A stretch of 44,494 nt of DNA from Treponema sp. GTDB taxonomy: Bacteria; Spirochaetota; Spirochaetia; Treponematales; Treponemataceae. The stretch lies in contig JAILBH010000066.1 of NCBI GenBank assembly GCA_024681195.1, forward strand, positions 1 through 44,494, given 5' to 3'. A program made the position numbers and the translations under genes. Positions 13,488 through 18,471 of the stretch are shown here, in pieces. The notes under the pieces are model-generated. The model was not told the origin of the DNA, did not search any database, and was given only the letters and a program-made list of their open reading frames with translations. The first letter of the stretch is position 1. Each line of letters begins with the position of its first letter.

Positions 13488-14291
13488 CTAGTTACTTAAG
13501 CCCTTCTTCTGGTCGGCATCCATTTTATCCTTCCAGACCATAGCTTTTTTCTTTGTTTCTTCTGCCTCGTTGTTGCGGCCAAGGACAATATATACACGGC
13601 GCAAAGCTACAAGATATTTAATGGCATTTCGCATATCATCAATACGTCTGGTAGAAAGCTCATAACGGTCGCGATAACCATTTGCAGCCTTTTCCAAAAG
13701 CTTTTGAATCATGCGTACATAAGTTACGGTAGTTTCATAATCTTCAGAACGAGGATCAAAAAAGTCTGCACCAGCAGCCTTCATATCAATGAGGTTTTTA
13801 GCAACAGTAGCAAAGCGTCCTTCAAGTTCTACAAAAGACCACTTCCATTTACTGTTGTCTCCAAAAGCATCTTTAAGAATCTGAATTGCAAGACCAAGCT
13901 TGCGGATAATAAGATAGCGTTTAACAATATTAATGCTCTTAATAGCTTCGTGACATTCATTTAATTCTGAATACTGGCAGTCAATTACGCTTGTTACAAT
14001 TTCTTCAAGATAGATGATTGCCTTATAAAGCATTTTTCTTGCTTCGTTAAGAGCATCATTATTTTTAACTTCCATGAGCTTGAGAGAAAGACTGTTTTGA
14101 GCCATATACAAAGAAGCAACATAAATCATGTCTTCGCAGAGGAGAAGCTTTTTATATTCAAGACCTATATCGCCCTCATGCATGGCGTTGCGCATAGTTT
14201 TTTCTTTTTCTAGAGTCTGATTAACCTTATCCTTATAAGGCTGGATACATTCATTAAAATGAAGCCTTGTCTCCTCTGAAATCTTAGCCAT
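13488..14291 (-). CDS. Helical cytoplasmic protein of unknown function
   Basis: This 267-residue protein has no signal peptide, no membrane segment and no motif that I recognise. It is almost entirely predicted alpha-helix, with charged heptad-like stretches (near residues 5-45 and 205-265), and reads like a helical-bundle or coiled-coil adaptor. Its ATG overlaps the recN stop by one base (TAATG), so translation is probably coupled to recN, and the HD protein follows after five bases. From memory T. pallidum has a conserved unknown gene at this position, so it may be a treponeme-specific partner of RecN or of the HD protein; that is only inference from position. Confidence 0.7.
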   Translation of the reverse strand: MAKISEETRLHFNECIQPYKDKVNQTLEKEKTMRNAMHEGDIGLEYKKLLLCEDMIYVASLYMAQNSLSLKLMEVKNNDALNEARKMLYKAIIYLEEIVTSVIDCQYSELNECHEAIKSINIVKRYLIIRKLGLAIQILKDAFGDNSKWKWSFVELEGRFATVAKNLIDMKAAGADFFDPRSEDYETTVTYVRMIQKLLEKAANGYRDRYELSTRRIDDMRNAIKYLVALRRVYIVLGRNNEAEETKKKAMVWKDKMDADQKKGLSN

Positions 14292-16030
14292 TAGAATCCT
14301 CCGCTATATTTTTCAAGCATCGTTTTTGCATGTACCAGAGACTGCTGGGTATCCGAATCACCGGACAGCATTCTTGCAATTTCTGCTACTCTTTCTTCTC
14401 CCTTTACAGTATGAACATTAGAAGAAGTTATTCCTCCCTCGACAGCCTTTTCTATCTTAATTTGATTATCGGCATAAACTGCGATACTGGCTAGATGTGT
14501 TATGCAAAAAATTTGACGATTTTTTGCAAGGTTTTTCATGTGAGATCCGACCGCTACAGCAACCTCTCCGCCAATTCCTGTGTCAATTTCATCAAAAATT
14601 AACGTTTCTACACTATCATTTTGTGCAAAAATTGTCTTTAAAGCAAGCATTACACGCGAAAGCTCACCACCAGAAGCAATTTTTGCCAGAGGCAGCAGCG
14701 GAGTTCCCGGGTTTGCACTAATAAGGAATTCTATATTGTCTTTTCCATAAGGTCCGCATTTTTGAGCAACATCACTACCCTCTTTTTCCTGGATAGAAAC
14801 GCCAAAATGGGTTCCATTCATTCCAAGTTTTGCAAGAATTGCATCAACTTCTTTAGAAAGCTGATCAGCACAGGCCTTACGTTTTGCAGATATAATCTGA
14901 GCCTGAGCGAGGATATCCTTTTCCAGAACCTTTATTTGTGCTGTAAGAGCATCCTTTTTATTTGCACCATCTGAATTTTCATCAATATATTTTTGTGCAT
15001 TTTCGCAATACTCAAAAAGCTCAGATAATGGTGCGTTTGGAGAAGAAGTATATTTTTTCTTAAGATTATAAATTAATGAAAGGCGTTCCTGAACCTGTGC
15101 AAGCCGAGCCGGATCAAAAATCAGTGCATTTTTATATGAATTAAATTCTGCACAAATATCAGAAAGCTCATAAAAAGCAGATTCAACGCGCTCATCCAAA
15201 GCGGCAACAGATTTATCCATTCCGGCAATATGAGAAGCGTTTCTCCTCACTTTTTTAAGAATATCAATTACAGAGCTCTCGCCTTCATCAAGCATTTTGC
15301 AGATTTCATCTGAATCTGAATATATTTTTTCGAACGAAAGTAAACGGGCTTCTTCATCTTCGAGCTGTGTGTCTTCATCTTTTTTGAGTTTTGCTTCTGT
15401 AATTTCTTTTACGGCAAAATTACACATATCAAGCTTGCGAAGTCGTTCACTTTCGGACATTGAATACTGATCAAGCAAGCGTCTTTTTTCTACAAGCTCC
15501 GCATATTTTTGTGTAAAAGCCATAACTTCAGTAGTTATGCCGGCTCTGTTATCCAGAAACTTTCTGTGCTCCGGAACTTTCATAAGCGACTGATGTTCAT
15601 GCTGACCATGTATATCTACAAGAAAAGAAGAAAAAGCAGCCAGATCGCCGCGTGTTACAGGAGTATCGTTTATCCAGGCTCCAGATTTACCTGAATCGCG
15701 GATAAAGCGGCGAAGCAGTACACGATTATTTTCTATTGAGATTCCATGCTGATTAAGCCATTCATTTGCGTTAAGAGGCTCTTCATCATCATTCAGATTA
15801 CGAACTTCATTACAAGGAGGCAGAACAAAGGTTCCGCTTACAGAAGCTTCATTTTTTCCGGTCCTAATTTGATTTACATCTGCTTTACCGCCAAGCAAAA
15901 AAGAAAGTGCTCCAATCAGAATTGATTTTCCAGCCCCGGTTTCCCCGCTTAAAACAGTAAAGCCTTTTTCGAATTCAAGATAGTCATTTTCAATAAGTGC
16001 AAAATCCTTAATGTTTAATTCTTCAAGCAT
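14291..16030 (-). CDS. recN: DNA repair protein RecN
   Basis: RecN is an SMC-like ATPase that acts early in double-strand break repair. The 579-residue protein has Walker A GETGAGKS at 29-36, a long central coiled coil (about 150-370), the ABC signature SGGELSR near 453 and Walker B TLIFDEIDTGIGG near 478. The length is close to the usual 550-570. I start at ATG 16030 (MLEELNIKDFAL), eight bases after a GAGAGG ribosome site, rather than at the GTG three codons upstream that overlaps that site. The ATG lies inside the end of nadK (8-base overlap), and the gene runs directly into the helical unknown gene. Confidence 0.95.
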   Translation of the reverse strand: MLEELNIKDFALIENDYLEFEKGFTVLSGETGAGKSILIGALSFLLGGKADVNQIRTGKNEASVSGTFVLPPCNEVRNLNDDEEPLNANEWLNQHGISIENNRVLLRRFIRDSGKSGAWINDTPVTRGDLAAFSSFLVDIHGQHEHQSLMKVPEHRKFLDNRAGITTEVMAFTQKYAELVEKRRLLDQYSMSESERLRKLDMCNFAVKEITEAKLKKDEDTQLEDEEARLLSFEKIYSDSDEICKMLDEGESSVIDILKKVRRNASHIAGMDKSVAALDERVESAFYELSDICAEFNSYKNALIFDPARLAQVQERLSLIYNLKKKYTSSPNAPLSELFEYCENAQKYIDENSDGANKKDALTAQIKVLEKDILAQAQIISAKRKACADQLSKEVDAILAKLGMNGTHFGVSIQEKEGSDVAQKCGPYGKDNIEFLISANPGTPLLPLAKIASGGELSRVMLALKTIFAQNDSVETLIFDEIDTGIGGEVAVAVGSHMKNLAKNRQIFCITHLASIAVYADNQIKIEKAVEGGITSSNVHTVKGEERVAEIARMLSGDSDTQQSLVHAKTMLEKYSGGF

Positions 16031-16865
16031 AAGGCTCACCTCTCCAATTCAATTTAGATCGAAGGGCATTGAAAAACTTTTCCTGAGTACAGCAGATAAG
16101 TTTTATTTTTTTATCATTTATTTTAATTTCAATTTTATCACCTGCCATAAGCGAAACAGGCTCCTGACCATCAACAATCATACAGATTTCTTTTGTACGG
16201 CAAGGTTGAATATTAATTGAAAGCACTCCATCCGCTCTTAAAACAATTGGTCTGCTGGAAAGCGAAAACGAATTGATTGGAGTCATAACAATTGCATCCA
16301 GCACAGGATCCACAATTGGTCCGCCTGCAGAAGCAGAATATGCAGTTGAACCAGTTGGAGTACAGATAATTACACCATCAGACTTAAGGCGGCAAAGCCG
16401 GTCATCATCAAAAAAGACATCCATAGCTACAGTGCGGGCTGTATGTTTTGCGCTGATCACCACATCATTTAGACCAATAAATTCTGCAATCTGTTTAGAA
16501 TCGCGTATAAGTTGTGCCTTAAGCATGCTCCTGTATTGAAATTCATTTTTATTTTGAAGAAGGAGCTCCAGACTCTCCTGCCATTCTGATTGTTGAACCG
16601 AAGCCATAAAACCAAACTGTCCAAGGTTTACAGGAAAAACCGGTACATCATATTCAACACAGTTTCGGGCTGCAAAAAGAACGGTGCCGTCGCCACCAAG
16701 TGTAATTACAAATTCATAATCCAAAAAAGGAGTATTTTTATTAAAACCGTCAAAATTCAATAATTCACATTCCACTTCCTTTTCTTTTAAGAAAGCCGAA
16801 ATCTTTTGTGAAAGAGAAAGAGATTCTGGTTTTTCGGTATTAATGATTATCAATACTTTTTTCAT
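16023..16865 (-). CDS. nadK: NAD kinase
   Basis: This protein phosphorylates NAD to NADP. It has 280 residues with the GGDGT motif at 57-61, the GQFGF loop near 82-86 (LGxLGF in many homologues), NDVVIS at 133-138 and the TPTGSTAYSASAGG NAD-binding block at about 169-182. These four blocks define bacterial NadK (PpnK). The start ATG at 16865 is preceded by AAGGTGG. It sits 16 bases after the DegT-like gene and overlaps recN by eight bases; nadK-recN coupling is common in bacteria. Confidence 0.95.
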   Translation of the reverse strand: MKKVLIIINTEKPESLSLSQKISAFLKEKEVECELLNFDGFNKNTPFLDYEFVITLGGDGTVLFAARNCVEYDVPVFPVNLGQFGFMASVQQSEWQESLELLLQNKNEFQYRSMLKAQLIRDSKQIAEFIGLNDVVISAKHTARTVAMDVFFDDDRLCRLKSDGVIICTPTGSTAYSASAGGPIVDPVLDAIVMTPINSFSLSSRPIVLRADGVLSINIQPCRTKEICMIVDGQEPVSLMAGDKIEIKINDKKIKLICCTQEKFFNALRSKLNWRGEPYA

Positions 16866-16881
16866 TATTCCACCTTATAAC

Positions 16882-17937
16882 TTAAGGAAGAGTTCCAAGA
16901 ACCTTTACAACCTTTTCTGTCTGAACATGTGTGAGACGCGGATAAAGCGGAAAATGAGCTGTTCTGAGTAAAAGAGATTTAGCATGAATACAAGTTTCAG
17001 AAAGCTCGTCCTTTAATGCAATTACAGAGCCTTCAAAAGCAAGACTAATTTCTATATCCTTTCTTGCAGTATAGCTTTTTACATCTTTAAATGAGCTGCT
17101 CAAAATCAGAGGAAATGAACACATTGTTGAACCACCTTCCATATCGCGTGCAAAGGTTTTGTGTCTTCCAATCATACTGGCATGCTGATACATATTAAAG
17201 ATTTCTTTTCTAGTTGTTTCGTTACGGTTAAATTCCTTGAGCTGAACCCATGCAAGGGCACAGTTGATATCAGGAAGAAGATCTGTAAGAGGAGCTTCGT
17301 CGGTAAACTTTTTAAGAACAATCCATTCACGGCGGCCCGGAGCCATCAGGACAGCACCACCACCAGCTGTAATTACATCATGTTCTTCGAGTCCCATAAT
17401 AGTAAATACACCATAAAGACCAGCTTTTTTTCTTTCTTCTGTTACATTTCCGTTTTCATCTTTAAGGGCTACAGAAGCACCGGCACTTTGAGAAATATCT
17501 TCTACAACAGGAATCCCTAAAGCAGCAATTGCTTCAAAATCAGGGAGGATACCTTCTGTTTCATGCAGCAAAAGAAGCCGGCCACCCTTTTGAATGCCAG
17601 ATTGAATCTGCTCTACAGGAACAAGCCCGTCTGTTTCTGAAACATCAAGGACTAAAGGCTCATAACCAAGAGACTCTATTACCTGATAGTGCCAGGCAGG
17701 AGCAAGGGCCGAAATCATTATTTTAGAAGCTTTTTCTAAATCCAGACTCATAAGAATATATTTAAGGGCAATAGCCGGACTGCGCAATGCTACCGCACCG
17801 TCGCACTTAAAAAATTCCTTAACCTGCTGGATTAATCTTGCATTTAACTCGCCGGGACCAATTTTTTCATCCACCATGCAAGTTAGAACTGCATCCATTT
17901 CTTTTCTACGAATTGTTGAACTGTATGTTTGTATCAT
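16882..17937 (-). CDS. DegT/DnrJ/EryC1/StrS-family protein with histidine at the PLP-lysine position
   Basis: This 351-residue protein has the type I aminotransferase fold of the DegT family: the N-terminal GPGELNARLIQQVKEFF block, then VVEDISQSAGA (D147 and Q150 as in active family members), then an ITAGGGAVLM strand. Family enzymes have a Schiff-base lysine seven residues before the GGAV motif. Here the gapless match puts H186 there (LEEHDVIT), with no lysine nearby. ColD and E1 sugar 3-dehydratases also use histidine here, so it may be a PLP/PMP dehydratase-like enzyme or an inactive relative. T. pallidum annotations call the homologue a spore coat polysaccharide biosynthesis protein (from memory). 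Its ATG overlaps the cheW stop by one base. Confidence 0.8.
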   Translation of the reverse strand: MIQTYSSTIRRKEMDAVLTCMVDEKIGPGELNARLIQQVKEFFKCDGAVALRSPAIALKYILMSLDLEKASKIMISALAPAWHYQVIESLGYEPLVLDVSETDGLVPVEQIQSGIQKGGRLLLLHETEGILPDFEAIAALGIPVVEDISQSAGASVALKDENGNVTEERKKAGLYGVFTIMGLEEHDVITAGGGAVLMAPGRREWIVLKKFTDEAPLTDLLPDINCALAWVQLKEFNRNETTRKEIFNMYQHASMIGRHKTFARDMEGGSTMCSFPLILSSSFKDVKSYTARKDIEISLAFEGSVIALKDELSETCIHAKSLLLRTAHFPLYPRLTHVQTEKVVKVLGTLP

Positions 17938-18410
17938 TAATTTAAATCGATTATCTTTTGTAATTCTTTTGCATCAAATAACTTCCGAATATTAAGCATA
18001 ATAAGATAACCACTATCTTCACGGATTACACCTTTAATATATTCAGAACCAATACCAGTGAGCATCTGAGGAGGCTCTTTTACGTCTTCGGCTTTTACAA
18101 CTACAACGCGGGCAACCTTATCAATAATAATTCCAATTTTGTTATTATCGATATTCAGAATTATAAATCCACCTTCAAAATCAGTCTCGCTTTTATCCAG
18201 AGCCTTAATTCTAAAACGTTTGTGCAAATCTATAATCGGAATAATTTCACCACGAAGATTGATAATTCCTTCTACATAGTAAGGAGCATTTGGTATAACA
18301 CGAACATTCTGCAAACGAACAATTTCTTTTACATCCATGATGTTAACACCGTATAATTCATCGCCTAGCTGAAAGGTTACCAACTGGAACTGTGTATCTT
18401 CTGTAGCCAT
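17937..18410 (-). CDS. cheW: Chemotaxis adaptor CheW
   Basis: CheW couples methyl-accepting chemoreceptors to the CheA kinase. The 157-residue protein spans the usual single CheW domain: QLVTFQLGDELYGVNIMDVKEIV, then the conserved VEGIINLRGEIIPIIDL, a VVVKAEDVKEPP segment and a C-terminal helix. I start at ATG 18410 (MATEDTQF), directly behind a strong GGGGGAA ribosome site. A 15-codon longer frame exists but would begin inside the promoter. Its short length shows no extra domain. The DegT-like gene follows with a one-base stop/start overlap. Confidence 0.95.
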   Translation of the reverse strand: MATEDTQFQLVTFQLGDELYGVNIMDVKEIVRLQNVRVIPNAPYYVEGIINLRGEIIPIIDLHKRFRIKALDKSETDFEGGFIILNIDNNKIGIIIDKVARVVVVKAEDVKEPPQMLTGIGSEYIKGVIREDSGYLIMLNIRKLFDAKELQKIIDLN

Positions 18411-18442
18411 ATTTCCCCCAAAGAATAAATCTCTATCTCTAT

Positions 18443-18471
18443 ATAATACCCCCAAAAGCGTAAATTTGCAA
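18443..18471 (-). promoter_or_regulatory. Sigma70-like promoter for cheW
   Basis: On the minus strand TTGCAA (18471-18466) is separated by 17 bases from TATTAT (18448-18443). A start near 18436 gives a leader of about 25 bases that ends in the GGGGGAA ribosome site. It probably drives the cheW-degT-nadK-recN run. No flagellar sigma28 motif is apparent. Confidence 0.55.

Follow-up and report, generated by a model that had tools for sequence, protein, structure and literature searches.

A lysine-less branch of the DegT fold spread through Spirochaetota, with a cofactor site that appears rebuilt in Spirochaetia

Overview

In spirochaetes, one branch of the DegT/DnrJ/EryC1 fold appears to have lost all function as a PLP or PMP enzyme and to carry a rebuilt pocket that serves in binding or structure. 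We give this reading a probability of about 0.6. The branch lacks the Schiff-base lysine and is spread through Spirochaetota, and the alignments indicate that its cofactor site is rebuilt in the class Spirochaetia. The member described here is encoded in a 44,494-nucleotide stretch of DNA from Treponema sp. (contig JAILBH010000066.1), which is referred to as the window. Judged by its residues, the window protein could not use the usual sugar-aminotransferase mechanism, and it probably has a role other than the annotated chemistry. A Pfam match would label such genes across Spirochaetota as sugar aminotransferases. A search of the open-access literature found no paper on the spirochaete lysine-less DegT protein. 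The finding is broader than that of a first-pass annotation of this DNA, which was right about the missing lysine and wrong about the residue that replaces it and about the analogy with dehydratases.

The gene, its fold and its operon

The gene (16882-17937, minus strand) encodes a protein of 351 amino acids, recognized from its open reading frame and profile match as a lysine-less member of PF01041. The profile match reaches 68.5 bits (E 8e-19) against a curated cut-off of 19.8. The open reading frame, the DegT homology and the VEDISQSAGA segment reported in the first-pass annotation were all found as described. An AF2 model of the window protein has a pLDDT of 93.8 and a pTM of 0.91. Compared by VIA-align, the model matches ArnB (8sng) with Z 42.0 at 2.2 A over 337 aligned residues, and it matches E1 and ColD with Z about 38. 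The input alignment for AF2 consisted of 8 orthologues and 48 lysine-bearing viral DegTs, and part of the fold similarity therefore stems from that alignment; AF2 supplied with only the 8 orthologues gives a poor model (pLDDT 48). A DegT-type fold is predicted to span the whole length of the protein, in a model whose alignment included other DegTs. The dN/dS of the gene against close relatives is about 0.1, which shows that strong purifying selection acts on the protein and that it is not decaying.

Gene order and open reading frames place cheW (17937-18455, minus strand) immediately upstream, where its stop codon overlaps the start of the DegT-like gene (TAATG). Downstream lie nadK, encoding NAD kinase (16023-16865, minus strand), and recN (14291-16039, minus strand). 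The cheW-nadK-recN block proposed earlier is confirmed by this order, and no sugar-nucleotide gene is present among the flanking genes examined. A 267-residue open reading frame downstream of recN (13488-14291, minus strand) has no Pfam match and recurs as a conserved member of this operon across Spirochaetia and outer classes.

The genomes searched for further members were drawn from Spirochaetota. A match is present in 96 of 98 relatives and, at E 1e-20, in 207 of 247 genomes of the phylum, with ordinary lysine-bearing DegTs among the weakest of these matches. The gene is found in Treponema parvum ATCC 700773 (locus L015). The arrangement cheW-degT-nadK-recN-(ORF 13488-14291) is shared by Treponemataceae, other orders of the class and three outer-class loci (L154, L157, L159). 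Another outer locus (L167) has degT-nadK-recN, and nadK-recN synteny was not seen in outer loci L156, L158, L161-L166 and L168-L173. The most constant neighbours of the DegT-like gene are nadK and recN. Long open frames in five loci (L055, L058, L062, L070, L083) were considered as fusions and rejected, because the N-terminal part of each lies over cheW in a different frame and is unlike CheW.

The position of the missing lysine

Ungapped alignments place the Schiff-base lysine of DegT aminotransferases (Lys188 of ArnB) at Asp187 (17377-17379, minus strand). Motifs of the SFYATKTLTTGEGG type, present in 13 spirochaete DegT paralogues and 48 viral DegTs, align ungapped to MGLEEHDVITAGGGA with their lysine over Asp187. 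The viral-contig sequences were retrieved by a pattern that contains the lysine, and the register is fixed by the whole alignment. Searches of viral sequences with one paralogue or with the A2 profile turned up no relatives. The HMM alignments to BtrR (SCQQGKVLTAGEGG) and 7b0m (SFNGNKIITTGGGG) are gap-free through the motif and also put the lysine over Asp187. The HMMER alignment to ArnB has a one-residue gap before the motif, yet Lys188 again falls on Asp187. Three proteins of this branch that retain the lysine (L270, L272, L277) agree in having it at position 187. One of them, L277, reads SFSATKMITSGGAGG beside SLSATRMITSGGAGG in its arginine-bearing relatives, and this pairing settles the register. 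A different anchor, in which F178-T179-I180 is taken as the F-S-F motif and the lysine falls at Glu184, was rejected because paralogues, viral DegTs and outer members align gap-free with S-F over G182-L183.

The first-pass annotation had counted back from GGAV to His186, whose codon (17380-17382, minus strand) it gave correctly. The count is one residue off, and the alignments show that His186, the residue before the lysine position, is not conserved. Position 186 is R29 H13 K10 F6 N3 and others in Treponemataceae and is equally mixed elsewhere (G, R, A, D and others). Because the position varies among homologues, which the annotation itself had named as grounds for abandoning the idea, the proposal fails for the histidine.

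The absence of the lysine is a property of the family. In an alignment of 155 members, comprising 116 Spirochaetia sequences and 39 more distant ones, lysine at position 187 is found in 0/116 of the former and is replaced in 36/39 of the latter. The loss is far beyond chance, as 152 of the 155 members have another residue, and the earlier claim of a missing PLP lysine stands. The replacements are diverse (D, S, G, N, M, E, R, Q). The 67 Treponemataceae have D64 N3, the rest of the order has D15 S15 G3 and others, and other Spirochaetia have G, S, D or N. No lysine or histidine is conserved in at least 90% of Spirochaetia sequences, and hence no substitute lysine is evident.

A tree of 97 rows, built without the motif columns, separates 73 family rows from 24 ordinary DegT rows with an SH-aLRT of 99. 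Three of the family rows have the lysine. Their position inside the family branch indicates that the lysine was once present in relatives and then lost, with R, M, S, E, D, G or another residue now in its place. Parsimony counts 3 changes between lysine and other residues over all 97 rows, paralogues included. Lysine-bearing, arginine-bearing and fully rebuilt relatives coexist in one phylum, and since such relatives survive, stepwise loss of a cofactor and retention of the protein for another use can be followed.

Two features of the outer branches can be added. In family f22 the lysine position is arginine in most members (L169, L170, L271, L273) and lysine in L277, and the phosphate cup is largely intact, a pattern that reads as a recent substitution at the catalytic site within a close-knit group. 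In L285 and L286 the lysine is replaced by arginine, and the active-site loop has a large insertion, with 124-130 residues separating G194 from D223.

Remodelling of the former cofactor site

Loss of the lysine is accompanied by loss of most of the phosphate cup (features in this section are all on the minus strand and are placed by alignment). Gly182 (17392-17394) stands in place of the phosphate-binding serine of the S-F motif (Ser183 of ArnB), and serine is found here in 17/116 Spirochaetia compared with 24/24 ordinary DegTs. Ala55 (17773-17775) stands in place of the phosphate-binding threonine (Thr64 of ArnB). Threonine occurs at this position in 2/116 Spirochaetia, with serine in 24-25 more, compared with threonine in 20/24 ordinary DegTs. 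In more distant family members these two phosphate-cup residues are partly retained. The active-site loop is also shortened (residues 203-222, 17272-17331). From G194 to D223 it comprises 30 residues in the window protein and 27-30 across Spirochaetia, as opposed to 40-67 in DegT paralogues. In ArnB-type enzymes, residues of this loop extend into the adjacent active site.

New invariant residues have appeared in the same region. Glu184 (17386-17388) is invariant in Spirochaetia (116/116) and absent outside, and Arg52 (17782-17784), where the former phosphate-cup loop begins, is invariant together with it. The two occur jointly in all 116 Spirochaetia orthologues and in 0/63 of the other aligned rows. 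Arg52 aligns with Ser61 of ArnB, three residues before Thr64, and Glu184 with His185 of the same enzyme, two positions past Ser183. One part of the old site persists. The aspartate that contacts the pyridine N1 (Asp160 of ArnB) is kept as Asp147 (17497-17499) in 115/116 sequences. The PLP-pocket glutamine, which had been described as kept along with this aspartate, is Q150 and is only partly kept.

The window protein has the N1 aspartate of a DegT aminotransferase and lacks the lysine, the phosphate-cup Thr/Ser and the full-length loop. ArnB (UDP-Ara4N aminotransferase, 1mdo and 8sng) is a close known relative, with which it has in common the fold over the whole length, the N1 aspartate and a D-x-N motif. 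It differs from ArnB at Lys188 (Asp), Thr64 (Ala), Ser183 (Gly) and His185 (Glu), and in its shorter loop, at about 20% identity. The PseC/LegC-type aminotransferase profiles (TIGR03588, TIGR04181) rank first or nearly so among curated profiles for most of the members scanned, but all family scores lie far below the curated cut-offs and the family lacks the lysine.

Interpretation and alternatives

The sequence shows that the Schiff-base lysine has been lost to Asp187, that the phosphate cup has been dismantled and that the active-site loop has been shortened, in a fold that is predicted to be intact. In the reading that we prefer, the protein would remain a DegT-type dimer. Arg52 and Glu184 may form an ion pair in the former space of the PLP phosphate, beside the kept Asp147. 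This contact is suggested by their neighbours in the ArnB alignment, as each of the two adjoins a phosphate-cup residue. The role of the rebuilt pocket would be to bind some other ligand or simply to hold the fold, and the protein, expressed from the cheW-nadK-recN operon, would be a non-catalytic binding, scaffold or regulatory protein. As Asp147 and the general fold are kept, weak cofactor binding may persist. The repurposed pseudoenzyme suggested in the first-pass annotation gains support from the loss of the lysine, most of the phosphate cup and part of the loop, from the low dN/dS and from the conserved operon.

Catalysis of another kind is the main competing idea. It is conceivable, though rather unlikely, that an old Spirochaetota family of the DegT fold abandoned PLP and that Spirochaetia then built a new ligand-binding or catalytic site from Arg52, Glu184, Asp147, Asp223 and Asn225 in the place of the cofactor. 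The more specific proposal that these residues form the active site of a PLP-independent enzyme, which binds or turns over an unrelated substrate, is likewise rather unlikely. The invariant charged residues new to the clade are Arg11, Arg52 and Glu184, of which the last two adjoin the old cofactor site in sequence, and the gene is kept in a reduced genome of 1,139,633 bases in one contig (G153); both points agree with an enzyme. However, a buried salt bridge acting as a structural element explains the invariance equally well. There is also no candidate substrate, and among metabolic genes only nadK recurs as a partner in the conserved neighbourhoods.

A role as a sensor or carrier, with PLP or PMP bound non-covalently, is improbable. 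The near-invariant Asp147 and the phosphate-cup residues left in distant members would suit such a role, but Spirochaetia have lost most of the phosphate-binding residues and have a shortened loop.

Fold-type I subunits that lack the lysine and are kept by selection are known, namely SPTLC1, which pairs with SPTLC2, and the A subunit of the split glycine decarboxylase. By analogy, the spirochaete protein could be the non-catalytic partner of an active, lysine-bearing DegT aminotransferase. DegT enzymes form dimers in which the active sites are shared, and many of these genomes also encode lysine-bearing DegTs. Whereas the known subunits act beside an active paralogue, the DegT-like protein is the sole PF01041 match at E 1e-15 or better in five genomes that are 93-99% complete (G066, G072, G080, G314, G323). 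This speaks against obligate pairing, and the conserved neighbours include no DegT partner. The subunit role is accordingly quite improbable.

A PMP-dependent 3-dehydratase like ColD or E1, which the first-pass annotation had offered, is very improbable. ColD and E1 have the same fold and naturally lack the lysine, but they have histidine at its position, where the window protein has Asp187. The histidine on which the idea was based is out of register and unconserved, and histidine at the true position is found in 1 of the 152 members without lysine. The phosphate cup is mostly gone in the spirochaete family. The E1-type, histidine-bearing paralogues encoded in these same genomes (L180, L182) sit on a different branch of the tree and have the S-F serine and a 67-residue loop, neither of which is found in the spirochaete family.

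A chemotaxis accessory protein that works with CheW, as the overlap of the two genes in the window and the adjacency of cheW in most loci might suggest, is just as improbable and is largely refuted by the distribution, since eight genomes at least 93% complete keep degT-nadK-recN without any CheW match (G312, G314, G315, G323, G327, G089, G069, G080) and Borrelia-like genomes have cheW without the gene. In three such Borrelia-like loci (L298, L300, L301; genomes G331, G324, G172) cheW, nadK and recN are adjacent and the DegT-like gene is cleanly missing. Its absence from an otherwise intact operon provides a natural comparison.

Observations on individual loci

An rRNA operon lies directly upstream of cheW in one genome (G068). 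Many draft contigs of the order (genomes of families f3-f5) end about 1 kb or less upstream of the gene, as expected from assembly breaks at rRNA. Positions L047 5967-10001 and L060 6590-6660 belong to these two observations. Two draft genomes (G074 and G083; L080 1189-2237 and L082 107-925) have the gene either truncated or divided between two frames, which is a frameshift or an assembly error.
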